From the NCBI RefSeq assembly GCF_012843435.1, contig NZ_JABAFC010000020.1, forward strand, positions 1 to 64,000: a stretch of 64,000 bases of DNA. The letters run 5' to 3'. Positions 6,826 to 37,683 of this stretch are shown here, piece by piece. The notes beneath the pieces were generated by a model. The model saw only the letters and a program-made list of their open reading frames with translations, was not told the DNA's origin and ran no database searches. How positions within the stretch are numbered: position 1 is the first letter of the stretch; each line of letters opens with the position of its first letter. Made by a program: the position numbers and the translations under genes. This DNA is from Psychrobacillus sp. BL-248-WT-3 (lineage in GTDB: Bacteria > Bacillota > Bacilli > Bacillales_A > Planococcaceae).

Positions 6826-6925
6826 TCTTTTATATAAATGAAACTTTCTTTCCATTCTTTCGTAAATAGTATAAGGTAATACTGTAAGTCTAATCTAATA
6901 ACTATTTTACGGAGGGTTTTAAATT

Positions 6926-7387
6926 TTGAAGAAAATTCTAGTCGCACTACTTACTATCACGCTTGTTTTTTCTTCAGTGGGCAATTTTGTCTTTCAAGAC
7001 GATATAACTGCTGAAGCTAAGAAATACAAGTCAGGAAAAAAAGGTTTTAATTCTAATAATAATTCAAATGACAATACGAATAATTCCAATACGAATTCTA
7101 ATATTCAAAAAGATAACGATAATTCTACAACAGCTACAAATAAATCATCTAACACAAACTCCAAAGGTGGATTTACGGCTGGTGGATTGATGAAAGGTCT
7201 TTTCATAGGTGGTCTCGCTGGATTACTCTTTGGTAGTCTTTTTGCAAACATGGGTATACTTGGTTCCATATTAGGTTTCTTAATTAATGCTGCTGCTATC
7301 GCAGTAATTGTTATTCTTATCCTTAAGATCATCAACATCTTTAAAGACAAGAAAAAGAAAGAGGAACCACATACATGGAAAAACTAG
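6926..7387 (+). CDS. Secreted/membrane protein with Asn-rich linker and Gly-rich membrane segment
   Basis: 153 residues. A signal peptide (about 1-31, ending near AEA) is followed by a Lys/Gly stretch and an Asn/Ser/Thr-rich low-complexity linker (about 38-80). Next come a Gly-rich segment (about 82-110) and a hydrophobic helix near 112-138, ending in a Lys-rich tail. Similar proteins are common in Bacillus and sometimes labelled Tim44-like; the function is unknown. The start is TTG behind GGAGGG. It overlaps the next gene by 13 bp and precedes one terminator, so the pair forms an operon. The exact signal-peptidase site is uncertain. Confidence 0.78.
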   Translation: MKKILVALLTITLVFSSVGNFVFQDDITAEAKKYKSGKKGFNSNNNSNDNTNNSNTNSNIQKDNDNSTTATNKSSNTNSKGGFTAGGLMKGLFIGGLAGLLFGSLFANMGILGSILGFLINAAAIAVIVILILKIINIFKDKKKKEEPHTWKN

Positions 7388-9834: not shown

Positions 9835-12800
9835 TTAGTTCTCTTCTGTTTCTTTTACAGGCTCTTCTAATTCAGCCGGTTTATCTACTGCTGGCTGTGA
9901 AGAGGTTGGAGCATCAACATTAATAAACAATTTACCTGCTGCTTTTTGACGTGTTTCATTTCCAAAGCCATCAATTGCTATTACTTCGATTACTGCTCCA
10001 TTTGCTACTGTATCTGCTGGCACTGTCCAATAACCAACATAATGGCCATTACCAGTTTCCATCATTGGTAATTCTGTAGCATTTTGTACATCTCCAACAT
10101 TTGTAAGTGGCATATGAATAACAAATGTAGGTTTTAAACCAGGCTCACTGTCAAATTCAATTTTAACACTACGGCCAGTTTTAAGATTTAAATCTGTTGC
10201 TGGTTTTAGGTTAGAGATTTCTGGAGCAATGGAGTCAGTAGTAACCTTAATTGTCTTAGTTTCTACATTTCCTGCTGCATCCTTCGCCTCTACAGTAATT
10301 TCATTTAATCCTTCTTCTAAAAGGATACGTTTAGAGAATTTGCCGTTAGTTACTGTTGCTGGTTGTCCATTTACATGAACATATTCCAAATTAGCATCTG
10401 CAATAGTACCTTCTACAGTAACACTTTCACGATTTGTTTTTTCTCCATCAACTGGTTTTGTAATAGTTAATTCAGGCTTTTGAGTGTCTAAAGTAACTGT
10501 TACTGGTGCAGACTCTCCAGTTTCACGACCATCTAAAGTAGATACAACTGTAAATTCATTTTCACCTTCAGTTAATACTGCATCAAGTGCGAATTTACCG
10601 TCATTACCAACCTCAGTAGATCCTACTACTTCACCATTTTGCTTCAACTCTATAGTTGTAGTTGGTGACGCAGATCCTTCTATTGTAATGTTTTCTTCGT
10701 TAGTCACTAAACCTTGTTCAGGTGAAGTGATAACTGGACCTACAACCTCGTAGCTTACACGAGCTCGGATCATATAGTTACCCTCAGCAGCAGGTGCAGG
10801 AGTCCATGCACCTGAAACTCCTTGGTAGCTTCTACCAGCATTTGGTCCATCTTCATCTGTAGCTAGACCTGGAGTGTTAGGGTTTGCAAATGTTTGGCGA
10901 TACACCATATGGAAGTCTCCATTTACAACGATGTTGTGTTCCGTTAAGTCAACAACCGTCCAATCACCATTACGTAATGCTGTTGCATTAACAGGACCAG
11001 CAATCATTTTCCCTGGTGCTCCATCAATACCACTTGCATCCCAAACTTCTACTGCGAATGCTGTTCCACCTGGTACTGGCCATTCTGTTGTCCAGAATTT
11101 AAATACTCCATCTGTTACAATTCCACTTTCCTTACCTTCAGGAAGTGACATTTTTACAGACCATGCATTTCCAGCTGCGTTAAATGCTCTTGCATTTTCT
11201 GCAGTTCCATCATCGTAACCAATTTCCCCACCTGGATAAGTGTAAAAAGGTTCTAAAGCGATATCTTTTGTAATTGGCTCACCGTCAATTGTTACAGAAA
11301 CTTCTTGACCATGGTAGCCACGAGCGATAACTTTTAACGTGTACTCTCCTACATATGCAGTAATCTCATAGTTACCATTTTCATCAGTAACGACTGGTGA
11401 GATATTTGCATCCTCTACTAGAAGAATAGTTGCTCCAGCAATTCCTTCTCCTGTAGAAGCATCTGTAATTGTACCGCTAATCGTATTTTGTTCAACTTCA
11501 TCTAAAGTAAAGTTTGCAGTTGCTGTTTCATCTGCTTCAATCACTACTGATTTTTCTTCAGACTCGAAACCATAAGCTTCTGCTTTTACTGTAAATGTAC
11601 CTGCAGCATGGGTCATTGAGTAAGAACCATCTGCTGGGTTTGTGTAAACAGAGCGATTTGTTTCAAGTACGCTAACTTGTGCACCAAGTGGTAGTAATGC
11701 AGGAGCATTTGTATCTTCCACTACTGGTGGCGCTGCCTTTACTTCAGGTAAAACAGGTTTAATTTTATTTGGATCTACTGCCGGTTTTTTCACGTCAATA
11801 TCTTTTTGATTGTTATTTCCTTTACCGCCTGTGATAGCTGAATTTCCATTGTTGCTATTTCCATTGTTATTACCTTTTCCTTTTGAAACAGTACCAGTTT
11901 GAGAAACATCCGTTAAAGCTACGTCATCAATATACCAACCGTCTCTTTGTACACTTCCATCAGAAAATGCATTAAATCCAAGATAGATACGTTGACCCGC
12001 ATATTCAGAAAGGTCTACCTCTACATCTCCCCATGCTGTAGATATTCCTGTAACCCTTAATAACTGTGTCCAGTTTACTTGGTCAGTAGAAACAACTATA
12101 TGTCCATAATCCCAAGCTGTACCAGATGAAGCTTGTTCAAAATTATGCCACTGCTTGAACTGAAGATATGAATTTCCTTCTGGCAAATCAATTGGAGGTG
12201 CCACAAGTGTTGCGTTCATATTATTTGCATACTGACCAGCTAGATTAGTAGCATATACCTTTTCTCCAGATGCTGCATTTCCAGGACCAGATGTTGGTAC
12301 GCCCCACTCCCAGCTGTTTTGGTTCCCAAAAGAGTACCATCCAGTTGGTTGTGCTTCAAAATCTTCTGAGTATCCTACAGTAACGCCAGGTTTTACTTCT
12401 ATTGTATACTCTTCACTTGTTACTTCGTTGTTACCAAAATCTGTTGCAGTCCAAGTGTATTTAAAGGAAGTGCCTGTGATTAGATCTCCAGGGACCACTA
12501 CTGTGTATACTCCAGACTTAAAATCACCAGATGAGCGCCCAGCTTCGATTTCTTGCCAAGCTCCGTTTTCATCTTGATATTTTAATACTACAGAAGAAAC
12601 ACTAATATCATCTGTAACATTTGCAGTTAAAGTTAAAGCCATACCTTCATATGTTTCAGAAGGAGCAGAGTGTTCAAGAACTGGCGCTTCATTATCCTCG
12701 CCCTCTTTAGTAACTTGTCCTTTTAAAGTACCAAGTCCAGTAAGAATAGAAGACACTGCAGCTTCAGCATCTACTAAACCATATCCATAGCCATGGTTTG

Positions 12801-14292
12801 GCACTGTTGTATATTGGGTATCTGTTAAAGGAATAGCTGTATTTAATAAAATCTCTTCCATTTGATCTACTGTAAGATTTGCATTTACCTGTCTAAGTAA
12901 TGCAGCAACACCAGATACAGCTGGTCCTGCCATAGAAGTTCCATTCCAACCACCTTCATATCCGCCACCAGGGATAGAAGATCGAATGTTGACTCCTGGA
13001 GCTGAAATGTCAGGTTTAATCTCAGCATATGGAGATGGACCGCGAAGAGAGAAACTTCCAACTATATTGTTAATATCCGTTGCGCCAGTTGCGAAAGACT
13101 CAGGATAGTTAGATGGTGCCGCTACTGAACCAGGCCCACCTGGGTTAGAAAAAGTAGTATTTCCTGCAGAGAATTCTGGGAATATTTCAGCAGCACGCCA
13201 GTTGATTACAACATCGCGGTACCACTCATCTAGTCCTGCTCCGCCACCCCATGAGTTGTTGACAACATCTGGAGCTAAATCTACTCGTGTATTTCCACTT
13301 GCATCAGTAGGAGCTAATATCCACTGTGCAGCTTCTAATAAATCAACGTCAGAACCACCGGAAGCTGTAAATGCTTTAACAGCAATAAATTTAGCACCTG
13401 GAGCAACACCAATTTGATTAGAACCGTTTGGCTCACTACCTACCATCGTTCCAGTTACGTGCGTTCCATGATCTTGATCATCGAAAGGTGTTGGACTTGC
13501 TGAAGAAGTCGCATCAAACCAGTTAAAGTCATGTGATACTTGACCTGTTGCTTTGTTGTACCCACGGTATTTTTCTTTAAGGGCTGGATGATCCCATTGA
13601 ACACCCGTATCAATACTTGCGACTACAGTACCAGATCCATCAATGCCCATTTCCCAGACTTGTGGTGCCTTAACTCGGTCGATATTCCATTCCACATTTG
13701 CAACCTCAGCTTTAGGTGCTACTGCGTCTTTAGTTTTAGTAACAAACAGCTGACGTGTTTCATTTGGAAGGATTTTTTCTACCTCAGGAAAGGTAGCAAT
13801 TTTTTCAGCAATTTCTTTTGTCGTTGTTACAGACATTCCATTTACGATATAATAAGATTCTAAATCACTAGCATTTCCTTTGGAAACTTCTTGTTCAAGA
13901 AACTCCATCACAGTTTCTTGTGATTCCATGGAAGTGGTTTTTAGTTCTGACACAACTGCTGACCTCTGAATCAGCTTTGTGTTATGAGCTGAAAGATTTT
14001 TCGACTCGGCATTTTTTCTAGCCTCTGAAGCTACTTTTGCCGAGTCAGCCTTTTCTTTGAACTTTATCAAGAAAGTAACCTTTTCATCTTCTTTAAAGTC
14101 TTCTAGTAATCTACTGCTCATTTTATCCTTGACAGAAATACTGTTCGGACTTGAATCTCGCAATGACTGGTGCAATTTGCTGTTCGCTTCTGCACTAACT
14201 ACATTGGGAGCGATCAGTGAAAATGTCATAAGTAAAGTTGCTGCGATACTGACGGCCTTGTTTCGTTTAGTTCGTCTACTGCTCCTACTCAA
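9835..14292 (-). CDS. bpr: Bacillopeptidase F, secreted S8 serine protease
   Basis: 1485 residues; B. subtilis Bpr has about 1433. In order: signal peptide (1-34); I9-type propeptide (about 55-185) with VVNGM-like and FPEVEKILPNETRQLF blocks; subtilisin domain with catalytic Asp near 228 (ASIDTGV), His near 275 (DHGTHVTGT), oxyanion Asn near 378 (SAGN) and Ser near 453 (NGTSMAGP); an Ig-like domain; a MAM-like module around 640-795; a Gly/Asn-rich linker; carboxypeptidase-regulatory-type repeats (about 880-1040); a further beta module; and two or more bacterial Ig-like repeats (about 1200-1380). It is an extracellular protein-degrading enzyme. There is no LPXTG anchor. The start is TTG behind GAGGAGG. 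All catalytic residues are intact. Confidence 0.96.
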   Translation of the reverse strand: MSRSSRRTKRNKAVSIAATLLMTFSLIAPNVVSAEANSKLHQSLRDSSPNSISVKDKMSSRLLEDFKEDEKVTFLIKFKEKADSAKVASEARKNAESKNLSAHNTKLIQRSAVVSELKTTSMESQETVMEFLEQEVSKGNASDLESYYIVNGMSVTTTKEIAEKIATFPEVEKILPNETRQLFVTKTKDAVAPKAEVANVEWNIDRVKAPQVWEMGIDGSGTVVASIDTGVQWDHPALKEKYRGYNKATGQVSHDFNWFDATSSASPTPFDDQDHGTHVTGTMVGSEPNGSNQIGVAPGAKFIAVKAFTASGGSDVDLLEAAQWILAPTDASGNTRVDLAPDVVNNSWGGGAGLDEWYRDVVINWRAAEIFPEFSAGNTTFSNPGGPGSVAAPSNYPESFATGATDINNIVGSFSLRGPSPYAEIKPDISAPGVNIRSSIPGGGYEGGWNGTSMAGPAVSGVAALLRQVNANLTVDQMEEILLNTAIPLTDTQYTTVPNHGYGYGLVDAEAAVSSILTGLGTLKGQVTKEGEDNEAPVLEHSAPSETYEGMALTLTANVTDDISVSSVVLKYQDENGAWQEIEAGRSSGDFKSGVYTVVVPGDLITGTSFKYTWTATDFGNNEVTSEEYTIEVKPGVTVGYSEDFEAQPTGWYSFGNQNSWEWGVPTSGPGNAASGEKVYATNLAGQYANNMNATLVAPPIDLPEGNSYLQFKQWHNFEQASSGTAWDYGHIVVSTDQVNWTQLLRVTGISTAWGDVEVDLSEYAGQRIYLGFNAFSDGSVQRDGWYIDDVALTDVSQTGTVSKGKGNNNGNSNNGNSAITGGKGNNNQKDIDVKKPAVDPNKIKPVLPEVKAAPPVVEDTNAPALLPLGAQVSVLETNRSVYTNPADGSYSMTHAAGTFTVKAEAYGFESEEKSVVIEADETATANFTLDEVEQNTISGTITDASTGEGIAGATILLVEDANISPVVTDENGNYEITAYVGEYTLKVIARGYHGQEVSVTIDGEPITKDIALEPFYTYPGGEIGYDDGTAENARAFNAAGNAWSVKMSLPEGKESGIVTDGVFKFWTTEWPVPGGTAFAVEVWDASGIDGAPGKMIAGPVNATALRNGDWTVVDLTEHNIVVNGDFHMVYRQTFANPNTPGLATDEDGPNAGRSYQGVSGAWTPAPAAEGNYMIRARVSYEVVGPVITSPEQGLVTNEENITIEGSASPTTTIELKQNGEVVGSTEVGNDGKFALDAVLTEGENEFTVVSTLDGRETGESAPVTVTLDTQKPELTITKPVDGEKTNRESVTVEGTIADANLEYVHVNGQPATVTNGKFSKRILLEEGLNEITVEAKDAAGNVETKTIKVTTDSIAPEISNLKPATDLNLKTGRSVKIEFDSEPGLKPTFVIHMPLTNVGDVQNATELPMMETGNGHYVGYWTVPADTVANGAVIEVIAIDGFGNETRQKAAGKLFINVDAPTSSQPAVDKPAELEEPVKETEEN

Positions 14293-27526: not shown

Positions 27527-27553
27527 TGAAACTATTTAAGCGGTAGTTACGTA
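27527..27553 (+). promoter_or_regulatory. ECF-sigma-type promoter of the Ter operon
   Basis: TGAAAC (27527-27532), 17-base spacer, CGTA (27550-27553). This matches the -35/-10 pattern recognised by B. subtilis ECF factors such as SigW, SigM and SigX. The start codon of the first TerD gene is 37 bp further on. The homologous yceC operon of B. subtilis is known to be controlled by such factors. Confidence 0.7.
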
Positions 27554-27590: not shown

Positions 27591-28202
27591 ATGGCTATTA
27601 ATCTTGTAAAAGGACAAAAAATTGATCTTACTAAAGGTAGGTCTTCTTTAAAAAGTGTCATGGTTGGACTTGGATGGGATCCAGTAAGTCAAAAAAGCGG
27701 TGGGTTTTTAGGTAGTCTTTTTGGCGGTGGTTCTAGTGGCGCTGCTATAGACTGTGACGCTTCAGTTCTACTTTTAAACGAAAATGGAAAGTTATCTTCC
27801 AAACAACAATTAATATATTTTGGAAACAAAACTTCTAACAATGGCAGCGTGGTACATATGGGTGACAACCGTACCGGAGATGGTGACGGAGACGATGAGG
27901 TAATTAACGTAAACCTTAAATCAGTTGCAAGTTCTGTTCATAGACTTTTATTTGTCGTTAATATTTACCAAGCAAAACAACGAAAACAAGATTTTGGCTT
28001 GATAAAAAATGCATTTATTCGTTTAGTGGACAACGATACAAGACAAGAATTAGTACATTATAATCTTTCTGATAATTATTCTGGGAAAACTTCACTTTTC
28101 CTTGGGGAACTATATCGCGATGGTGAAGAGTGGAAATTCTCGGCTATTGGAGAAGGTACAGCAGACACTGATATTTCATCTATAGCAAACAAATACTTAT
28201 AA
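27591..28202 (+). CDS. TerD family stress protein (YceC-like)
   Basis: 203 residues. It opens with [16 protein letters not shown], the TerD start, and contains the calcium-binding loop [13 protein letters not shown] near residue 94. A Gly/Ser-rich insertion (about 38-53, [14 protein letters not shown]) distinguishes it from the two other TerD copies and is typical of YceC/TerZ-like members. TerD proteins are cytoplasmic, bind calcium and are linked to resistance to tellurite, phage and membrane or DNA damage. First gene of the nine-gene Ter operon; ribosome site GGGGAGG. Confidence 0.93.
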
Positions 28203-28218
28203 GGAGTGGGATATAAAC

Positions 28219-28794
28219 ATGGCTATTAATTTATCTAAAGGACAAAAGGTAGACTTAACTAAAGGTAATCCAGGGTTAACAAACATTATTGTAGGTCTAG
28301 GCTGGGATACAAACAAATATGACGGCAGAAACGACTTCGACCTTGACTCTTCCGTTTTCTTACTAAATAGCAGCGGAAAATGTGCATCTGAGGCTGATTT
28401 TATTTTTTATAACAATACTTCAGGTAGTAATGGAGCAGTTGTTCATACAGGAGATAATCGCACAGGCGAAGGAGATGGCGATGATGAGCAAGTTAATATA
28501 AACCTTGCAAACGTTACAAGTTCTATTGAAAAAATTGCTTTTAGCATTACTATTCACGATGCAGAAGCTAGAGGTCAAAACTTTGGTCAAGTAAATAATT
28601 CATACGTACGAATTATCAATGCAGACACTCAGGAAGAACTAATTCGCTACGATTTAGGAGAAGATTTCTCAATTGAAACAGCAGTAGTTGTAGGTGAATT
28701 GTATCGCCACAATAACGAGTGGAAATTTAATGCAATTGGTAGCGGCTACCAAGGTGGATTAGGAGCTTTAGTTTCTGACTTTGGCTTAAACTAG
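28219..28794 (+). CDS. TerD family stress protein (YceD-like)
   Basis: 191 residues, the standard TerD length. [20 protein letters not shown] start; acidic metal sites in [13 protein letters not shown] and [14 protein letters not shown]-terminal [20 protein letters not shown]. It follows the first TerD gene by 16 bp and is very similar to the third copy at 35999. A hairpin terminator lies directly after it and separates it from the enzymatic part of the operon. Confidence 0.94.
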
Positions 28795-28808
28795 TTAAAT
28801 CTTTTCTA

Positions 28809-28838
28809 AAGCAAGGGTTTTCTCCTTGCTTTTTTTTT
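28809..28838 (+). terminator. Internal terminator in the Ter operon
   Basis: Arms AAGCAAGG and CCTTGCTT with a 7-base loop, then seven or more Ts. It lies between the second TerD gene and the aldolase gene, so it should lower downstream expression relative to the first two TerD genes. Confidence 0.88.
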
Positions 28839-28904
28839 ACAAAGAGTATATTTAATAGAACTTGGGTGACCTATAGCCCCTTCTTCTTTCAAGGAGTGAT
28901 TACC

Positions 28905-30002
28905 ATCAGACATTTTAAGGGTTTAAGTGAAAATGAAGTGAATAATTTTTTTCATCTACCTCCTAAAGAATTTTCAAAAACGACAGACAAGCTAAAATTG
29001 GGGATTGCTATGGGTGCCACTTTATATATTCCTGGCCTAATGAGTAATTTTTCTTCAAAACTAATCAAGAGATCTTTTGAAAATCTTACTAGTGTAATTA
29101 TGTGTTTAGAGGATTCTATTTCAGATAACGCGCTAACAGAAGCCGAAAACAATGTAGTAGAACAACTGCACACCTTAGCTGAAGCGATCAGCGCAAATGC
29201 TACCCTACAGTATGATTTGCCCCTCCTATTTATAAGAATTCGAAGCGTAGACCAGTTACAGAGAATTGCTAGTCAGTTAGGAAATGACTTAGACCTTATC
29301 ACGGGTATAGTCTTCCCTAAATGTAATTCTACTAATGCTAATGATTTCTTTTCATGCTTGGATTCCTTAAACCAAGCAAGATCCGTTACGCTATATGGTT
29401 TGCCTATTATTGAATCAAAAGAGATTATTTATAAAGAGTCTCGACAAGAGGAGCTCCAAAAGCTTTATAAGATTTTCTTGAATTACGAACGTCTCATATT
29501 AACCATTAGAGTTGGGGCAACAGACTTCTCTAGCCTTTTTAGCCTTAGACGGCCATATAATAGAACTGTTTACGAGCTACAATTAATTGGAGATTGTTTA
29601 ACAGAAATTCTAAACACTTTTAGACGCTATGAGGATAACTTTATAATTTCAGGTCCTGTATTTGAATACTTTGATGATAAAAGTAAGGACATCTTATGGG
29701 AAGAAGTTCAACTAGACCTTTTGAATGGATTTTACGGTAAAACGTGCATTCATCCAAGCCAAGTAGATATCGTTAATGCTGTCTATCCTGTTTCTAAGGA
29801 GACGTTTGACGACGCTAGCATGATCGTTGGAAACAGATATGGAAATAATGGAATTTTAAGTAGCCCTTCAAAAAATAAAATGAATGAGGTTAAACCTCAT
29901 TATAGTTGGGCTTTAAAAATACTGGCGCAAGCAGAAATATATGGGGTGCTAAATGAAAATGTTACCACACACGACTTTATTGGCTACATCAAGAACATAT
30001 AA
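28905..30002 (+). CDS. HpcH/HpaI (CitE-like) aldolase/lyase of the Ter operon
   Basis: 365 residues from the proposed start. The CitE/HpcH TIM-barrel pattern is visible: SVIMCLEDSIS (acidic metal ligand), LFIRIRSVDQ (substrate Arg), and KTCIHPSQVDIVNAVY near the C-terminus. It probably cleaves or forms a C-C bond of an oxo-acid or acyl compound. Start: AAGGAG (28891-28896) points to ATC at 28905, 8 bases away; the only canonical candidates are GTG at 28896, inside the ribosome site, and GTG at 28866, without one. CitE-like genes occur in predicted Ter-linked biosynthetic clusters. The next gene starts within its last 50 bp. Confidence 0.83.
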   Translation: MRHFKGLSENEVNNFFHLPPKEFSKTTDKLKLGIAMGATLYIPGLMSNFSSKLIKRSFENLTSVIMCLEDSISDNALTEAENNVVEQLHTLAEAISANATLQYDLPLLFIRIRSVDQLQRIASQLGNDLDLITGIVFPKCNSTNANDFFSCLDSLNQARSVTLYGLPIIESKEIIYKESRQEELQKLYKIFLNYERLILTIRVGATDFSSLFSLRRPYNRTVYELQLIGDCLTEILNTFRRYEDNFIISGPVFEYFDDKSKDILWEEVQLDLLNGFYGKTCIHPSQVDIVNAVYPVSKETFDDASMIVGNRYGNNGILSSPSKNKMNEVKPHYSWALKILAQAEIYGVLNENVTTHDFIGYIKNI

Positions 30003-31320
30003 TTTACATGGAAATTTAAAGCTAACCATTGATGTTCAAAATAATCCGTACAACCTTAATCCAGATAAGCTTTTTGAAATGGGAGTAAGAATAAATAAAA
30101 AAAGACAATTTCTCTTTATTAGTCGCCTGCTCGGGAAACACCTACCAGTAGACCCTTCTCTTTCACTAGGAACTGGGACTGTTCTTGCTTCTATGTTAAT
30201 GGAAAATGAAGGTTTACCTGCTCATCCACAGTTAATGGATATTATTCAAATGATTGATTCCGGCCAGTCAGACCGCACGCTTAGCCTTAGCTCTTTAAAA
30301 TATAAGGTTAAATTACCGTCTAATACTGTCTTTATAGGCTTCGCAGAAACTGCCACCGGTTTAGGTCATGCTGTTTTTAATCATTTTGATGAGGCTCAGT
30401 ACATTCATACTACGCGTGAAGAAATCATCAATCTCTCCCCTTCTTTTGTTTTTGAAGAAGAGCATTCTCATGCTACCTCTCACCGAGTATATGCTTCAGA
30501 GAACGTGTTAAAGGAAGCGGAAACGATTGTACTTATCGATGATGAAATAACCTCTGGCCTCACACTTTCCAATTTAATTATATCCTTAAACGAAAAGTTC
30601 CCAAAAAAGCAGTTTAAAATATTGTCTATTCTGGATTGGAGAAGTGTAGAAAATATAAACAACTTTACTGACTTAATGAAACAAAATGGGATTCATGCCG
30701 AAATAATCTCCATTCTTTCTGGTCAATTCACTCTACACAATACAGCTACCATCAAAGAGGAAGTCATACCTTACCTAAAAGGGGGAGAAGAAGTTCATGT
30801 GTCTTTAGAGGATGACATCCCCTCTCAGTGCACCACTCCCTATTTTAGCGAACATGCAATTTATAGCACTCTCACTGGTAGATTTGGCCTGACGAGTGAA
30901 AGCCATGCAGCAATGGACGACTGGATACATAAATTACTTGAAAAGCTGAAATTAGATAGGGATAAACCAACGCTTGTAATAGGCATAGGAGAAAACATAT
31001 ATATTCCAAGCCGTATTGCTCTCGCACTAGGTAAACATACCAAGATCCAAACAACGACTAGAAGCCCAATCTTTGCAAAAAATGAGGAACACTATCCAAT
31101 TAAAAGTAAGTGTAAATTTATTTTGCCTGATTCAAATGATGTTGAACAATACTTATATAACGTTGCAGAACATGAATTTGAACAAATCTTAGTAGTAGCA
31201 GAGTCTGTAAAAAATAAAGAAACCTGGTCTCCTTTACTAAGCTATTTGCACAGCAAAGGATTGGTCACATGGTTATCCCTTACATCGCCAGCTAACAGAG
31301 GGGGATTAGAGGATGCTTAA
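29953..31320 (+). CDS. Phosphoribosyltransferase with TRSP domain (Ter operon)
   Basis: 455 residues. The N-terminal two thirds is a PRTase with the PRPP-binding signature TIVLIDDEITSGLT near residue 195. A C-terminal TRSP-type domain begins around residue 280 (YSTLTGRFGLTSE) with VIGIGENIYIPSRIALAL near 345. PRTases transfer a ribose-5-phosphate from PRPP to a base or amine. In published comparative genomics, Ter-linked PRTases are proposed to build a nucleoside-like metabolite. The start overlaps the aldolase gene by 50 bp and the stop overlaps the next gene by 8 bp. Confidence 0.85.
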   Translation: MKMLPHTTLLATSRTYNLHGNLKLTIDVQNNPYNLNPDKLFEMGVRINKKRQFLFISRLLGKHLPVDPSLSLGTGTVLASMLMENEGLPAHPQLMDIIQMIDSGQSDRTLSLSSLKYKVKLPSNTVFIGFAETATGLGHAVFNHFDEAQYIHTTREEIINLSPSFVFEEEHSHATSHRVYASENVLKEAETIVLIDDEITSGLTLSNLIISLNEKFPKKQFKILSILDWRSVENINNFTDLMKQNGIHAEIISILSGQFTLHNTATIKEEVIPYLKGGEEVHVSLEDDIPSQCTTPYFSEHAIYSTLTGRFGLTSESHAAMDDWIHKLLEKLKLDRDKPTLVIGIGENIYIPSRIALALGKHTKIQTTTRSPIFAKNEEHYPIKSKCKFILPDSNDVEQYLYNVAEHEFEQILVVAESVKNKETWSPLLSYLHSKGLVTWLSLTSPANRGGLEDA

Positions 31321-32422
31321 GACTGATCACTTAGTTAAAACTAGTTACTCACCAGAAGACATTACCTTCTTACTAAAGGATATGTCCAAAATTCAAATTG
31401 AATCGAACATAGATAATCGAGAAAAGGCATTTTCTTTAGGGCATCATTACTCTGAGTCCTTACCTATAGAATATCGACCCTCTCCAGAGTATCTACGTCT
31501 ATACAATCAGGCTATGAACCAGCTTTCTAGCTATATAGCTCAATTAGTAGGCATTGTCACTAGACGCGTCCACAAATATGCAGGAACGGATCAAGTCGTC
31601 ATCATTTCCTTGGCACGCGCAGGAAGCCCAGTAGGAATTTTAATGAGAAGATATGCTCGTACTTTTTTAGGCTTAGACTGGCCACATTTTAGCGTATCCA
31701 TCTTAAGAGGAAAAGGGATTGACGAAAATGCTATAAAAACAGTGCGTGATCTATACCCGAACCATCATTTACAATTTGTAGATGGTTGGACAGGAAAAGG
31801 TGCCATTCAAAAAGAGTTGACCAAATCCGTTCAACAATTGAATGAACAAGGTCTTCACTTAAACGATGACCTTGCAGTCCTTTCCGATCCTGGTGGATGT
31901 GCAACGTTATATAGCACAAGAGAAGATATTCTAATACCTAATGCCTTTTTAAATTCTACAGTATCTGGCTTAATCAGTAGAACTATTCTAAATAACGCCT
32001 ATCAGTCACCAGAGGATTTTCATGGGGCCAAGTATTACGCGGAGCTTGAGGATGAGGATGTTTCCAACTCTTTTGTCGATCAAATAACTGCTCATTTTTC
32101 TACTGAAGAGGAAAATATCCTAAAGCAGTTCAATGAATTCCCTATTAAGAACGAAAGAACCTGGTCAGGCATGCAGGTAGCTCAAGAAATCGCACACAAA
32201 TATTACAAAAACTCTGACCTCACCAAAGTAAAGCCTAGTATTGGGGAAACGACTAGAACGTTATTAAGAAGGAAACCTCATAAAATTCTCTTAAGAGATG
32301 AAAATGAGGAAGCTGTTAAGCATATTTTAAGCTTATGCCAAGAAAAAAATATACCTATTGAAATAATCCCTGACCTTTATTACCGTGCTATTGGGCTTAT
32401 AGAATCGGAGGAATTAATATGA
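31313..32422 (+). CDS. PRTase-like StiP family protein with PELOTA-like C-terminus
   Basis: 369 residues. The StiP/PRTase domain (about 40-280) contains VVIISLARAGSPVGILMRRY and LAVLSDPGGCATLY. The C-terminal part (about 290-365, KPHKILLRDENEEAVKHILSLCQEKNIPIEIIP) resembles a PELOTA RNA-binding domain. StiP is often labelled a cysteine protease; a PRTase reading fits the operon better. It could act on a base attached to RNA or on a free nucleotide. The 4-bp overlap with the downstream HAD gene (ATGA) shows tight coupling. Confidence 0.82.
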   Translation: MLKTDHLVKTSYSPEDITFLLKDMSKIQIESNIDNREKAFSLGHHYSESLPIEYRPSPEYLRLYNQAMNQLSSYIAQLVGIVTRRVHKYAGTDQVVIISLARAGSPVGILMRRYARTFLGLDWPHFSVSILRGKGIDENAIKTVRDLYPNHHLQFVDGWTGKGAIQKELTKSVQQLNEQGLHLNDDLAVLSDPGGCATLYSTREDILIPNAFLNSTVSGLISRTILNNAYQSPEDFHGAKYYAELEDEDVSNSFVDQITAHFSTEEENILKQFNEFPIKNERTWSGMQVAQEIAHKYYKNSDLTKVKPSIGETTRTLLRRKPHKILLRDENEEAVKHILSLCQEKNIPIEIIPDLYYRAIGLIESEELI

Positions 32423-33234
32423 CTATTCTATTTGCGAGTGATTTAGATCGAACACTCATATATAGTAAAAAATCTAGAGGTCTCGAAGTAAGTGAACAGG
32501 ATCTAGCCATAGTAGAGTGGCGTGAGAACAATCCGACAGCATTCATGACCAAGGAAGGACTAGAAATTTTTAAAGAACTCTCCTCTTCCATTGAATTTTT
32601 GCCAGTCACAACTAGAACTAGTAAACAATATGAACGCTTGTTTAGATTGTATAATCCTCAGGAGAAGCCAACATACTCCATTGTCTCCAATGGAGCTGTA
32701 ATATTAGAAAATGGTAAACCTATTCCGGAATGGTCTGATAAAATAGAGGTACAGCTTGAGAACGACTGTACCTCTGTCTCTCACGTACTTTCACAGATTG
32801 AACCTTATATTCAAAGAGGCTCCGTCTTAAAATCCTTACAGGCAGAGAACTGGTTTGTGTATATGATTATAGATGAGGAGAGATTTACAGTTGAGGACTT
32901 GGAAGACCTATCCCAACTCTTTTACAAGCAAGGCTTCACCTTGTCTAAACAAGGAAGAAAGTTGTACGTAATGCCTAATTGTATTAACAAGTCTCTCGCT
33001 CTTGAGTTTGTAGCTGATCGAGTAGAGGCAGAAACAGTAATTGCAGCAGGTGATTCATTATTAGATTTAGATATGGTTTTAAGTGCTGATTACGGTTTCA
33101 TCCCTCAGCATGGAGAAGTTATATTAAATAATTCGCACCTCCCATCTCACGTCCAAGTAACCGATCAAACTGGTGTATTGGCAGGTGAGGAAATAATAAA
33201 AAAAGTTCATAATATTTGTTATAATATGTATTAA
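32419..33234 (+). CDS. HAD family phosphatase (Ter operon)
   Basis: 271 residues. HAD motif I FASDLDRTLIY near residue 4; motif II in PVTTRT near 62; the Lys region around KQGRKLYVMPNCINKSLAL; motif III/IV AAGDSLLDLDMVLSADYGFIPQHGE near 212. A C2-type cap between motifs II and III is likely. It is predicted to remove phosphate from the product of the two PRTase-like enzymes, giving a nucleoside-like compound. That step order is inference. It overlaps the previous gene by 4 bp. Confidence 0.85.
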   Translation: MTILFASDLDRTLIYSKKSRGLEVSEQDLAIVEWRENNPTAFMTKEGLEIFKELSSSIEFLPVTTRTSKQYERLFRLYNPQEKPTYSIVSNGAVILENGKPIPEWSDKIEVQLENDCTSVSHVLSQIEPYIQRGSVLKSLQAENWFVYMIIDEERFTVEDLEDLSQLFYKQGFTLSKQGRKLYVMPNCINKSLALEFVADRVEAETVIAAGDSLLDLDMVLSADYGFIPQHGEVILNNSHLPSHVQVTDQTGVLAGEEIIKKVHNICYNMY

Positions 33235-33249
33235 CAGGAGGTAAAACCC

Positions 33250-34863
33250 ATGGTGAAGTTAAATCCAATAAGGATGCAGTCGTGGGATTCATCTAACATT
33301 GGGAAATGGCTAAAAAACTCTTTAGAAGACCCTAGCATAGTGACAGTCGATCAAGATAGCCTGACATATCCCCAGTTATTATGCCAATTTATTGGTGTTT
33401 CTATGGATGAAGATGAGTATTTTACTATTTTGCATACACAATTAAATGATTCTGATGGTAAGCTGATTAATCTTACTAATTCTCTTAATAAAAATATTGC
33501 ACCTGATAAACTACGTGCTATTAATCAGCTTTTTGAAATACATCGGCAGGAAAAAGGACTGTCTCCTAATCGAATGGTTGCCTTTTTGGAAGGTCATTTT
33601 TTACTCCCAAAACTCAATGATACCGATTTAAATAGACGTATAAGGATTGTTTTAATCGATTTATTAAAACAGCTCCAATCTAACTATGTTGAAGGGACAC
33701 AGCACCATGAGTATCGACGGATAACGATTGATATGATTAAATGGATATTCAATCATGTCGAGCCTGTTTTAGAAAAATTAGACTTTCAAACTGGTCTGCC
33801 CGGCTTCCTCTGGTACGGTGATGCTACTCCTAGTGAGAGATGGTTTCTAAAGTTTTTAGGAGCTTATGGATTTCATATCGTCATATTTAATCCCTGCGAT
33901 GAATCCTGGCCAATGCAAATGCTTGGAATAGATGAGGAACATTCCTTTAAATTTCCCAAAATAGCAAGCAAGCCAAGTGAATTTCCAAATGAGATGCCTA
34001 AAATTGCTGGTACAGTTGCTTTTAGAGCTACTCAAGAAATAAATGAACTCTTGCATCACGATGATTCAGGTCTTTATAAGCCTTTTCAATTTAAATCATA
34101 TTCCATAAATTCCTTAAGGTTAAAAACCACCGAGGATGAAGCATTCTTAATAGCTAAAGAACGTGCAATGATTCGTCCTCACTTTCAAGTAAGCAGTCAG
34201 CAAGTAACTATTCCCGTCGTTTTTGCTAAATACATGGGAATAGACCGCAATCGAAAGCGTTTTTGGAACAACGTGCATTCCTTAACCTCTCGAGAGGATA
34301 CCCATGTGATTCGTCAATTCCCATTTACTAAGGAACAAAAGGCAAATCCAGTTTTTCATTATCGAAATGCTTTAAACTCTGACGGAATGTTAGATCCTGA
34401 GATTATGAAATCTTCTAATTGGTGGTCTTATGGTAAGCTACCTTCAGGTACACAAACAGCGATAGGTGAAGCCATTGCTAAGCATGTGCGTGATCCCATT
34501 CTTATTCCTCAGGGAAACGAAACACATGAGGAATTACAATTATATGCGTTCTCTCAATCCATGTTTATACCTGATTTTGTTATACGTCTGTTTCAAACGT
34601 TTGATTACCCTCAATATGTTCCAACTATCTTCCTTTATAATGAAGAAAAGGGACCCGAGTTGAGTAGAGCAGATGCAAACGCTCTATGCATCATGCATCA
34701 TCTTGGTTTAGATATTATATTGGTAAATCCGCAAGGACATTTGGATATAGAAAAATGGGTTCAAGAAGGAATGTTTGATCTGCACTGGATGGATGATAGA
34801 TCCTTCAATGAGCCTTTTAAAGAAGAGAATGTAGTAAGTAAGATTTTTAAAAAATTTAGATGA
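33250..34863 (+). CDS. yceG: YceG family protein
   Basis: 537 residues, identical in length to B. subtilis YceG as I recall it. It has two similar-looking halves, each with hydrophobic strands and acidic patches (HIVIFNPCDESWPMQMLG near 215 and LDIILVNPQGHLDIEKW near 495), but no catalytic motif I can name. The family occurs with TerD and TelA genes and has no established biochemical function. Ribosome site AGGAGG precedes the ATG, 15 bp after the HAD gene. Not to be confused with the unrelated MltG/YceG endolytic transglycosylase. Confidence 0.85.
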   Translation: MVKLNPIRMQSWDSSNIGKWLKNSLEDPSIVTVDQDSLTYPQLLCQFIGVSMDEDEYFTILHTQLNDSDGKLINLTNSLNKNIAPDKLRAINQLFEIHRQEKGLSPNRMVAFLEGHFLLPKLNDTDLNRRIRIVLIDLLKQLQSNYVEGTQHHEYRRITIDMIKWIFNHVEPVLEKLDFQTGLPGFLWYGDATPSERWFLKFLGAYGFHIVIFNPCDESWPMQMLGIDEEHSFKFPKIASKPSEFPNEMPKIAGTVAFRATQEINELLHHDDSGLYKPFQFKSYSINSLRLKTTEDEAFLIAKERAMIRPHFQVSSQQVTIPVVFAKYMGIDRNRKRFWNNVHSLTSREDTHVIRQFPFTKEQKANPVFHYRNALNSDGMLDPEIMKSSNWWSYGKLPSGTQTAIGEAIAKHVRDPILIPQGNETHEELQLYAFSQSMFIPDFVIRLFQTFDYPQYVPTIFLYNEEKGPELSRADANALCIMHHLGLDIILVNPQGHLDIEKWVQEGMFDLHWMDDRSFNEPFKEENVVSKIFKKFR

Positions 34864-34881
34864 TATAGGGGTTGAAGTAGT

Positions 34882-35958
34882 TTGGAACTAGAAAAATTAG
34901 AAATGGACCAAAAGGAACAGCTTTTAGAGGAAAGCAATGAACTCAAAACACAATTGAAGAGAGATCCTCAGGTTTTACAATTGGTTGCGAAAATTGATCC
35001 TAAAAACCAAGTAGAGTTGTTAGAGTTTGGTCGCGAGCCAGCAAACGAAATCTCTGCTTTTACAGGAAGAATTTTAAACACAATAAAATCTAGTAGTATG
35101 GAAGAATCCAGCGAGCTTTTAAAACAGCTTGGTAAAATTATGGATAAGTTCGATAAAAAAGATTTTGTAGAAAAGCCATCTCTATTGAGCAAGGTGTTCA
35201 AAAAGGGTGAGAAGCTAATTGAAAAGCTCTTCAATAAGTATCAAACAATGGGGAAAGAAATAGACAAAGTCTTCATTGAAATTACGAAATATGAAAAAGA
35301 GATGAAAGCTTCTACTCAAACGTTAGAAGAACTCTACGATAAAAACTTCACTTATTTCATGGAGCTAGAGAAATATATTGTTGCAGGTGAATTAAAGCTT
35401 AACCAGTTACGCCAGCAGCTCCCTGCCCTACAGGAAAAAGCAGAGAGAGGCGATCAGCTTGTTTTAATGGATTTAAATTCCCTTCAAAATGCCATTGAGC
35501 TACTAGATCAAAGAATTTATGACTTAGAAATGGCTAAACAAGTTGCCTATCAGTCTGCCCCTCAAATCCGAATGCTGCAACGAGGTAATACCAAGCTTAT
35601 AGGGAAGATTAACTCTGCATTTGTGACTACCATTCCTATATTTAAAACTGGTCTAATCAATGCTATTTCTGCCAAACGACAAAACTTGGTTGCCCAATCG
35701 ATGAGTGAATTAGACCGTCGAACAAACGAAATGCTGTTAAGAAATGCGAATGACATTTCTAGGCAAAGTGTAGATATCGCCAGAATGTCAGGTCAGCCTA
35801 GTATTAAAATTGAAACGATTGAGCAAACGTGGGAAACGATTATGCGTGGGATGAACGAAACAAAGGCGATTGAAGATGAAAACCGTAAAATGAGAGAACA
35901 AGGTCGTCTTCGATTAGAAGAGCTTCAAAAGAAATATGAAGATGGTCAAAGAAAATAA
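34882..35958 (+). CDS. TelA/YceH family toxic-anion resistance protein
   Basis: 358 residues, almost entirely helical and rich in Lys/Glu/Gln, the TelA pattern. It includes YMELEKYIVAGELKLNQLRQQLPAL (near 155) and a C-terminal coiled coil (KMREQGRLRLEELQKKYEDG). TelA proteins give resistance to tellurite and some antimicrobials by an unknown mechanism. In B. subtilis the equivalent pair is yceG-yceH. The start is TTG at 34882 with a weak GGGG upstream; ATG at 34903 (MDQKEQ) is an alternative. Confidence 0.88.
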   Translation: MELEKLEMDQKEQLLEESNELKTQLKRDPQVLQLVAKIDPKNQVELLEFGREPANEISAFTGRILNTIKSSSMEESSELLKQLGKIMDKFDKKDFVEKPSLLSKVFKKGEKLIEKLFNKYQTMGKEIDKVFIEITKYEKEMKASTQTLEELYDKNFTYFMELEKYIVAGELKLNQLRQQLPALQEKAERGDQLVLMDLNSLQNAIELLDQRIYDLEMAKQVAYQSAPQIRMLQRGNTKLIGKINSAFVTTIPIFKTGLINAISAKRQNLVAQSMSELDRRTNEMLLRNANDISRQSVDIARMSGQPSIKIETIEQTWETIMRGMNETKAIEDENRKMREQGRLRLEELQKKYEDGQRK

Positions 35959-35998
35959 ACACTTACTCAGTACTCACTAATTTAAAGGAGGAATTGAA

Positions 35999-36577
35999 AT
36001 GTCAGTTATTAACCTATCTAAAGGACAAAAGATTGATCTTACAAAAACGAATCCTGGATTAACAAAAATTATGGTTGGATTAGGTTGGGATACAAATCGC
36101 TATAGTGGTGGTCATGACTTTGATTTAGACGCCTCTGCTTTCTTAGTTGATTCAAATGGAAAGGCACTAAGCGATAAAAGTTTCATCTTCTATAACAATC
36201 TTCAAAGTGAGGATGGCTCAGTTGTTCATACTGGAGATAATCGCACAGGTGATGGCGATGGTGACGATGAGCAATTGTTAGTGAACCTTCAACAAGTCCC
36301 TAGCGGTGTGCATAGAGTAGTTTTTACCGTTACTATTCATGATGCAGAGGCTAGGAATCAGAACTTTGGTCAGGTTTCTAATGCCTTTATCCGGATTGTA
36401 AATGACGAGACGCATGAAGAAATAGTTCGATACGATTTGGGAGAGGACTTTTCCATTGAAACGGCACTTGTTGTTGGTGAGATATACAGACACGGAAATG
36501 AGTGGAAGTTTAACGCAATTGGGAGCGGTTTCCAAGGTGGCTTAGCCTCTTTAATAACGGAATTTGGTCTTAGCTAA
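35999..36577 (+). CDS. TerD family stress protein (third copy)
   Basis: 192 residues, closest to the TerD at 28219. [19 protein letters not shown] start, [13 protein letters not shown] and [14 protein letters not shown] acidic sites, and C-terminal [18 protein letters not shown]. The last gene of the Ter operon, 40 bp after telA, with its own strong AAAGGAGG site and a terminator about 70 bp downstream. No TerC gene is present in the operon, whereas B. subtilis has yceF. Confidence 0.94.
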
Positions 36578-36786: not shown

Positions 36787-37683
36787 ATGCTGAAAGATTT
36801 ATCTTCCCTCTTTCCTTCCTATCATAAATTTTCAGAATACCCAAATAACACAGATAAGGACGTTCATACTTTTCATGATCCTTCTAGTAATCAGTGGATA
36901 CAAATAAAGAAGAATGAAGTATCCTCTCGGGACTTTTCGCTACTCTCTTCTTTCTACACAGTAGTAGATTTAACGTTGCCTTCTGATTACTCACTTTCTG
37001 AAAGGTGGACTCGTTTTCTTCAAGGCTCTGGTGAGCTACCTATTGAGGCAGGCAAGAAAATTCGTATTATACAGCTTGTGATAAAGAGTAATAGCTTTCA
37101 AAATACAGACTTGGCCAAGGCCGTTCAATTATTTTTCGAGGATGCTGTGCAACTTGTTTTCGTAGCCCCCAACAATGCCTTACTGATTGAACAAAAGTCT
37201 ACTTATACTCAGTCTCCAGAGGACCTGGCTTCCTTTATCTCAGCTTTAGAAAGTGATTTTTTTATAAAAGCCCAGCTCTTTATCGGGAAGTTCTATCCTG
37301 TAGATGAACAAACACCTTCACGTTATGCTTTAGAAAGAGAATGGTTTTCTAATGGAATAGGCAACTATTTTCCTGGACGAATTTATACACTCGAAAGCAT
37401 ATTTCCGACCATCCTAACCAATGAAATGTCGGAAAGCTTGAGACAAATCATCCACCACGAAGTGTTAATTCCAATTGAATTTGACACGGAGCTACTGCAA
37501 ACCGTCCGTGCCTTTTTCGAAAATGGCTTCAACGCCTCTATCACTTCAAAAAAATTACATATTCACCGGAATACACTTCATTATAGATTGTCAAAATTTC
37601 AGGAAATCACAGGTATATCAGTCCGTGACTTTGGCGGAGCCCTCATTGTATATTGTGCTAGCTTGCTCGTAAACTATGAATAA
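36787..37683 (+). CDS. PucR/CdaR-type transcriptional regulator (YxkF-like)
   Basis: 298 residues. The N-terminal 220 residues lack a recognisable effector domain. The C-terminal HTH (about 235-290, FFENGFNASITSKKLHIHRNTLHYRLSKFQEITG) is the PucR HTH_30 type. In B. subtilis a similar regulator, YxkF, is encoded next to msmX, the same arrangement as here. It probably senses a sugar-related signal and may control msmX or the carbohydrate genes downstream. The target is inferred. Confidence 0.82.
   Translation: MLKDLSSLFPSYHKFSEYPNNTDKDVHTFHDPSSNQWIQIKKNEVSSRDFSLLSSFYTVVDLTLPSDYSLSERWTRFLQGSGELPIEAGKKIRIIQLVIKSNSFQNTDLAKAVQLFFEDAVQLVFVAPNNALLIEQKSTYTQSPEDLASFISALESDFFIKAQLFIGKFYPVDEQTPSRYALEREWFSNGIGNYFPGRIYTLESIFPTILTNEMSESLRQIIHHEVLIPIEFDTELLQTVRAFFENGFNASITSKKLHIHRNTLHYRLSKFQEITGISVRDFGGALIVYCASLLVNYE

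Follow-up and report, generated by a model that had tools for sequence, protein, structure and literature searches.

We analysed a stretch of 64,000 nucleotides from Psychrobacillus sp. BL-248-WT-3 (contig NZ_JABAFC010000020.1, positions 1 to 64,000; hereafter the window) and found that nine genes on its + strand, at 27591-36577, belong to a known, predicted Ter-dependent system: three genes of the TerD family PF02342 lie together with a phosphoribosyltransferase (PRTase) carrying a TRSP domain (PRT), a StiP-PELOTA protein (StiP), a HAD phosphatase (HAD) and a C-C bond lyase. Ter genes are widespread, plasmids and phages included. Their small-molecule branch dates, as a prediction, from 2012, when Anantharaman, Iyer and Aravind reportedly proposed a Ter-dependent stress response system with a nucleoside-like-metabolite module; we now narrow the chemistry to a core of PRT, StiP and HAD, and correct the likely nature of StiP from a protease to a protein with a PRTase fold.

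The explanation that we tentatively favour, at a little less than an even chance, is a stress operon of the Ter-dependent type, probably driven by sigma-W, whose enzymes would make a small molecule derived from phosphoribosyl pyrophosphate (PRPP) that acts with TerD, YceG and TelA (elsewhere TerC). Our best guess for the product is a small molecule built from PRPP, dephosphorylated, possibly doubly ribosylated and linked to TerD. In this pathway PRT, with its APRT-like fold and canonical DDE loop, would couple a base or base-like compound to the ribose-5-phosphate of PRPP; StiP would spend another PRPP at its unusual site with one acid, in the simplest case by moving ribose-5-phosphate onto a hydroxyl as the enzyme CriT does; and HAD, judging from its motifs and the precedent of CriT and its phosphatase CrpP, would take off the 5-phosphate. 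The CitE-like lyase, non-essential to the core as its distribution indicates, may tailor the product or supply a precursor in most lineages, and TerD would bind or respond to the product, as in the published proposal.

Gene content of the Ter locus

An earlier note on this DNA had placed the nine open reading frames (ORFs) on one strand at the same coordinates and assigned the same families, which the ORF list and Pfam bear out:

27591..28202, + strand, TerD copy 1, longer, with a glycine-rich insert (PF02342, E 1.9e-72)
28219..28794, + strand, TerD copy 2, with the conserved acidic GDNxTGxGxGDDE loop (PF02342, E 2.9e-83)
28866..30002, + strand, CitE/HpcH-like C-C bond lyase (C-C_Bond_Lyase PF15617, E 1.8e-106)
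29953..31320, + strand, PRT, PRTase_2 with a C-terminal TRSP domain (PF15609, E 5.9e-63; PF12500, E 5.6e-32)
31313..32422, + strand, StiP-PELOTA, a PRTase-fold protein with a C-terminal L7Ae/Pelota-like domain (PF11202, E 6.9e-94; PELOTA_1 PF15608, E 2.4e-25)
32419..33234, + strand, HAD-IIB-type phosphatase (PF08282, E 1.2e-8; PF05116, E 3e-6)
33250..34863, + strand, YceG, with two PF14266 stretches (Pfam)
34882..35958, + strand, TelA (PF05816, E 9.2e-102)
35999..36577, + strand, TerD copy 3 (PF02342, E 1.3e-86; solved TerD relatives 2kxt/2kxv, E 9.6e-76)

HAD apart, the Pfam E-values of the nine genes ranged from 1.8e-106 to 2.4e-25. YceG had no confident solved relative by sequence among the PDB sequences, where it gave one implausible match (E 0.34). 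The same locus was present in G154, another genome of the species, and in G172, one of the genus, and the closest named relatives of StiP were those of Psychrobacillus lasiicapitis (68%) and P. psychrotolerans (65%).

Overlaps of 4 to 50 bp between the enzyme genes, as the earlier note had described, are real (lyase/PRT 50 bp, PRT/StiP 8 bp, StiP/HAD 4 bp). That the four enzymes are translated together is only inferred from them, and for two of the enzymes the single ORF that joins PRT and StiP in 18 of 79 loci is better evidence of a shared function. The claim that terC is missing was also correct: TerC was not among the nine genes by Pfam, and a genome search found a single TerC elsewhere in the same genome (contig C45, 29330-29908). 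The link drawn to the published proposal of a nucleoside-like metabolite was well placed too; the suggestion of an undescribed system was not, since the Ter-dependent system had already been described and one enzyme family, PF15632, is named after it in Pfam ('ATP-grasp in the biosynthetic pathway with Ter operon'). Overall, the observation is confirmed, the earlier interpretation partly supported and the mechanism narrowed.

The general idea of signal synthesis by PRTase and HAD, with TerD as sensor and TerC and TelA as effectors, is set out in passages of PMC7824862 and PMC8115787. As in the window, TerD, TelA, two PRTase-type enzymes, HAD and a CitE-like lyase are clustered in the system treated in parts of PMC8115787, PMC7824862 and PMC4633105; the window differs in having YceG, and neither terC nor ATPgrasp_Ter (PF15632; Pfam) among its nine genes. 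According to a passage of PMC8115787, Klebsiella terZ-F in E. coli MG1655 was sufficient for tellurite resistance, and therefore the benefit of the biosynthetic module may lie elsewhere.

PRT, StiP and their partner enzymes

Alignments A1, A2 and A3 held 14, 51 and 56 chosen sequences, a subset of the loci described below, and residues were counted in ORFs inside set limits of length and score (64 HAD, 74 lyase and 59 StiP sequences, the window included). Active-site residues of the PRTases and HAD, on whose presence the earlier note had staked its view, are there in the alignments, as are those of the lyase. The predicted PRPP-binding loops of the two PRTase-fold proteins are as follows:

30538..30564, + strand, PRT loop DDEITSGLT, residues 196-204, with canonical vicinal acids
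31781..31804, + strand, StiP PRPP-type loop DGWTGKGA, residues 157-164, with a single acid (sequence motif)

The PRT model (predicted local distance difference test, pLDDT, 91.0) has an APRT-like N-terminal domain (Z 14.2, 172 aligned at 2.9 Å), and by this modelled fold and its acidic PRPP loop PRT is a type I PRTase. D196, D197 and E198 were invariant in 56 aligned sequences, as were the ExHSHA motif (E169, H171, S172, H173, A174) and the HxTR motif, and a loop of the DDExxxGxT type was matched in 53/56. PRT thus shares fold and a DD-containing PRPP loop with PRTases of the APRT/XPRT type, and differs from them in the DDE loop, the ExHSHA and HxTR motifs and the added TRSP domain; residues beyond 265, the TRSP region, were barely covered in a second structural comparison. 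No solved relative was found among the PDB sequences from the single sequence, and the profile gave only four PRTases (E 0.1 to 0.53). No ribofuranosyltransferase was among the 50 structural matches listed for PRT, an absence that proves nothing.

With the StiP model (pLDDT 94.3, predicted template modelling score 0.93), Foldseek gave seven matches at E<=1e-3, every one of them HGPRT or PyrR, and from the model we confidently assign a type I PRTase fold to StiP despite its Pfam name of "cysteine protease". The high-confidence PRTase fold led us to reject StiP as a cysteine protease. A protease maturing another Ter protein would agree with the PF11202 description in Pfam and with C196, conserved in 58/59 sequences; besides the fold, the window copy speaks against it, with F at position 212 (C in 58/59) and no C-terminal Cys pair, and we regard this explanation as highly improbable. 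As an observation in its own right, the window StiP is divergent at positions that are otherwise mostly conserved (C212 to F, W323 to H, the C-terminal Cys pair to Ala-Ile).

The loop of StiP read F[VI]DGWTGKG in 51/51 sequences, and FIDGWTGRG in the most distant copy. Nucleobase PRTases have two vicinal acids, according to a passage of PMC10299916, whereas StiP had DG instead of DD in 51/51; as modelled, PRT and StiP look like different PRTase subtypes. The same source describes, in part, CriT of Bcs3, which has a single loop-3 acid (E818), a second acid in loop 1 (D680) and main-chain atoms of 821-825 that bind the 5-phosphate; it moves ribofuranose-5-phosphate from PRPP to a hydroxyl, and its HAD partner CrpP then strips the phosphate (PMC10299916). 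In StiP, D157 is followed by G158, and T160-A164 lie at the same distance as CriT E818 and 821-825, in spacing and not in superposed coordinates. A PRTase-fold enzyme, a single loop acid and a HAD phosphatase partner are common to the locus, to CriT-CrpP and to the gPRT-PRP enzymes, as far as parts of PMC10299916 and PMC11127046 describe them. In the VIA second look, the Bcs3 chains 8a0c and 8a0m came top (Z 11.9/11.1, 200/202 aligned, 3.9-4.0 Å), followed by PyrR-type 1ufr (Z 10.5, 148 aligned, 3.9 Å) and the polysaccharide ribofuranosyltransferase 7shg of T. composti (Z 10.1, 210 aligned, 4.8 Å). The Bcs3 stretch matched by StiP, 637-963, falls inside CriT (aligned part of 8a0c, 639-963), an enzyme of a type marked by a PRTase core and a helical bundle flanking it. 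The long structural alignment is the likeness to CriT; StiP differs in having no detectable sequence similarity to it, in its PELOTA domain and in its link to a second PRTase.

Two accounts of the product can be weighed against these comparisons. If both PRTases act on nucleobases, the product would be a conventional nucleoside-like signal with an N-glycosidic bond and would carry no second, O-linked ribose; this is the published form, summarised in passages of PMC7824862 and PMC8115787. The APRT-like PRT and the best Foldseek matches of StiP, HGPRT and PyrR, agree with this; the lack of the vicinal acids of nucleobase PRTases, with the DGWTGKG loop invariant in 51/51, and the two top VIA matches to CriT chains, by a small margin, do not, and we consider it rather unlikely. 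The more specific form of the reading that we favour has two PRPP spent on one substrate: PRT would make a nucleotide, a CriT-like StiP would O-phosphoribosylate one of its hydroxyls and HAD would dephosphorylate it, giving a disaccharide-nucleoside Ter signal that is produced under sigma-W envelope stress and sensed by TerD proteins, which bind calcium. This is speculative, and we think it doubtful in this full form. We know of no disaccharide nucleoside of the second-messenger type, and a limited full-text search of the literature found, among the papers listed, none linking Ter-module PRTases to ribofuranosyltransferases, and no paper holding both 'ribofuranosyltransferase' and 'tellurite'.

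The PELOTA domain could point to a different substrate. It matched L7Ae (8hku_L7A1) at E 2.8e-4 with the single sequence, and its motif KPGxGETTR resembles KxGTNETTK of L7Ae, as would be expected if StiP-PELOTA ribosylated RNA docked by the L7Ae-like domain, so that the product would be a modified RNA and not a free metabolite. With the profile, the L7Ae match fell to E 0.056; no known RNA element was above threshold at the locus, where one sub-threshold Rfam match had E 0.23; and a HAD phosphatase partner suits a small product at least equally, so that an RNA product seems improbable to us.

The HAD residues D8, D10, T64, T65, K191, G211, D212 and D216, which we assign presumptively to motifs I-IV, were present in 64/64 sequences, and E82, D83, R124, R126, K152, E183 and D220 of the lyase in 74/74; their catalytic roles we take from general knowledge of the two families. 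Among the PDB sequences, HAD had no solved relative at E<=0.01 and the lyase gave only a marginal match to malyl-CoA lyase (E 0.051). At 28905-28907, the window and the same-species genome read ATC where the same-genus genome has an aligned ATG, after a conserved AAGGAG; this alignment suggests that ATC 28905, and not GTG 28866, is probably the true start of the lyase.

Distribution and modularity of the enzyme module

We searched 200 genomes drawn from the order, of which all listed ones belong to one family, and 80 named loci, the best 80 of at least 596 stretches matching the StiP profile and therefore biased to closer relatives. PRT and StiP occurred in an identical set of 87/200 genomes and were adjacent in 87/87; the lyase was found in 86 genomes, TerD in 92 and YceG in 93, and the TerD and YceG sets each included all 87 StiP genomes. 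Excluded before these counts were a StiP fragment (G182), 19 genomes with weak PRTase_2 matches only (including the remnant in G057 described below) and 13 with weak lyase matches only, which we took to be CitE paralogues or, as in G090, remnants; the YceG count takes in G063 and G136, both weak matches and the latter below cut-off. At phylum level StiP was rarer (14/249 genomes, its own genome counted). Conservation of the enzymes with TerD, which the earlier note had expected in relatives, is evident, as StiP was without TerD in 0/87 genomes and TerD was present in 77 of the 80 loci; HAD was present in 77, TelA in 47 and YceG in 37. The neighbourhood survey that it called for gave the order lyase-PRT-StiP-HAD within 6 kb in 75/75 loci with all four enzymes, and the five incomplete loci (L080, L088, L096, L104, L123) were all on short contigs or near contig ends. 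Since PRT and StiP form one reading frame in 18/79 loci, they probably act as one working unit.

The lyase is a frequent addition and not part of the minimal PRT-StiP-HAD unit. No lyase was detectable beside PRT, StiP and HAD in G387 (locus L134), a genome of a distant member of the Bacillota, or in part of a viral contig of 235 kb (L133:3013-9059), which has TerC-like (by eye), TerD, PRT, HAD and StiP, in the order PRT-HAD-StiP; in G090, of the same genus as G115, the cluster was YceG-TerD-TerD-TerD-[lyase remnant]-PRT-StiP-HAD. From these three we conclude that the minimal chemistry is that of two PRTase-fold proteins and a phosphatase. At 9938-12973 of locus L080, close to the end of a contig of Paenibacillus oenotherae, StiP and HAD stand side by side with an ORF of the ATP-grasp cluster. 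The 10 kb upstream gave no lyase, PRT or TerD, and the group may be either a separate unit or an assembly artefact.

TerC presence or absence at the locus is lineage variation. A TerC-type ORF lay near the module in 57/80 loci, and none was found in the other 23 within the DNA examined. One TerC-type cluster was found in 41 loci (40 non-actinobacterial), a median of 3.9 kb upstream of StiP, approximately between terD and lyase; a second, a DUF475/TerC-like protein, in 17 actinobacterial loci, with one locus in both clusters; and a further neighbour cluster in 14 non-actinobacterial loci, whose sampled member, from Paenibacillus (L121), is ATPgrasp_Ter PF15632. The Pfam check covered a single member per neighbour cluster.

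Five of the 92 TerD genomes had no StiP (G057, G063, G115, G166, G181), and TerD must therefore have work without the product. G057 has the cluster TerD-TerD-[short PRT remnant]-YceG-TelA-TerD-TerC-like (TerC-like by eye); the PRT remnant stands at the position of the module, and the module was therefore lost there. G115 has YceG-TerD-TerD-TerD, with no enzyme remnant found. Such absences, together with the ATC that stands for ATG at the lyase start in the window and in G154, would fit a module that is decaying in this species, with the operon acting mainly via TerD, YceG and TelA, although the four reading frames are unbroken and the listed catalytic residues are all in place; we hold this to be quite improbable.

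Relative to B. subtilis, the earlier note had described four enzymes as inserted. The B. subtilis genome, one of 14 control genomes, gave a TerD match and no match to PF11202, PF15609 or PF15617. In part, we presume the assignment of its yceC-yceH genes to families. The window resembles yceC-yceH in its TerD-type, YceG and YceH genes, and sigma-W is among the regulators listed for the operon in part of PMC3498285; it differs in the four added enzymes and in the absence of meeF/yceF (TerC) from the locus. The four enzymes are present and terC is absent from the locus, as claimed, but the direction of change is unproven, because a TerC-type gene and the enzymes are common together (57/80 loci), G057, of this family, keeps a PRT remnant and other genomes are without the module.

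Promoter-like site and internal hairpin

Two regulatory features were located at the Ter locus:

27527..27553, + strand, sigma-W/ECF-type promoter-like site TGAAAC-N17-CGTA, exact match, 37 bp before the first terD
28808..28832, + strand, intrinsic-terminator-like hairpin with T-run in the gap between terD copy 2 and the lyase

A sigma-W-type site was also upstream of terD in the same-species and same-genus genomes, and the genome has a SigW orthologue (326.7 bits, cut-off 243.1). We scanned 300 bp upstream of the first terD and 45 bp into the called ORF with spacers 15-17, leaving out 27 of the 80 loci (21 labelled actinobacterial from titles, 6 without an assessable first terD; 16 of the 21 served as negative control). 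The TGAAAC/CGTA motif was found in 34/53 non-actinobacterial loci (spacer 16 in 28, 17 in 6) and in 0/16 actinobacterial loci, and every permutation gave at most 1 after the true sites were masked (raw control maxima of 14 and 9 were the one-base-shifted GAAACT and ACGT; masked maximum 1). A sigma-W-type motif preceded yceG in 13/36 loci (L056, L065, L071, L073-L075, L079, L086, L087, L094, L095, L101 and L107, that is Neobacillus, Cytobacillus, Bacillus sp. and a few others) and the lyase in 0/57. Part of PMC3498285 gives sigma-W, sigma-B and sigma-M as regulators of the B. subtilis yceC-yceH operon, and a passage of PMC10550928 describes the yceCDEmeeF operon as constitutive and further inducible through stress sigma factors. 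From the promoter motif we consider that the operon is probably induced by the envelope-stress factor sigma-W, and propose sigma-W envelope stress as the inducing condition for a search for the product.

The hairpin qualifies the "operon" of the earlier note, whose nine same-strand genes stand with an internal terminator-like site between genes 2 and 3. A hairpin with T-run stood between the last terD and the lyase in 14/14 non-actinobacterial and 0/4 actinobacterial loci (shuffled mean 0.2/14), counted over the 18 of 80 loci with a terD-lyase gap <500 bp and with shuffles that preserve base, not dinucleotide, content. Over the whole region, terminator-like sites numbered 3, below the shuffled mean of 6.4, and therefore the terminator case rests on conserved position. 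As the hairpin is conserved in relatives, transcription probably differs in level along the nine genes, and the cell may produce more of terD1-terD2 than of the enzymes.

Several observations weigh against the favoured account of a sigma-W-driven operon making a PRPP-derived molecule with a CriT-like StiP. The resemblance of the StiP model to CriT is at fold level only: in Foldseek E-value order HGPRT/PyrR came first and 8a0c ranked 19 (E 2.0e-03), the lead of CriT over PyrR in VIA was just 1.4 Z, with 8a0m tied with PyrR and 7shg below it, and the StiP profile (A2) matched no CriT or ribofuranosyltransferase in PDB sequences at E<=1. Loop 1 of StiP (SLARAG) has no acid and no obvious counterpart of CriT D680. 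The exact promoter motif was missing in 19/53 non-actinobacterial loci, and the window holds two exact sites, a number that 3/100 shuffles matched, which is not overwhelming. Lyase expression may be weak in this species if ATC is its start, the enzyme module is missing in 5/92 TerD genomes, and no demonstrated product, substrate or sensor was found in the literature searched.

Outside the Ter locus, the second exact site (TGAAAC-N16-CGTA, 6839-6864) lies before a 153-aa protein at 6926 that has a signal peptide and a membrane segment by eye, possibly another sigma-W target. A PADLOC scan of 10 proteins gave a sole, weak match, of PRT to PRTase_III-A (E 2.9e-6), and on this basis we do not propose a link to known anti-phage defence families. 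Directly downstream of the Ter operon, 36787-37683 encodes a regulator whose C-terminal helix-turn-helix is of the PucR type and whose N-terminal part has no recognised Pfam domain.

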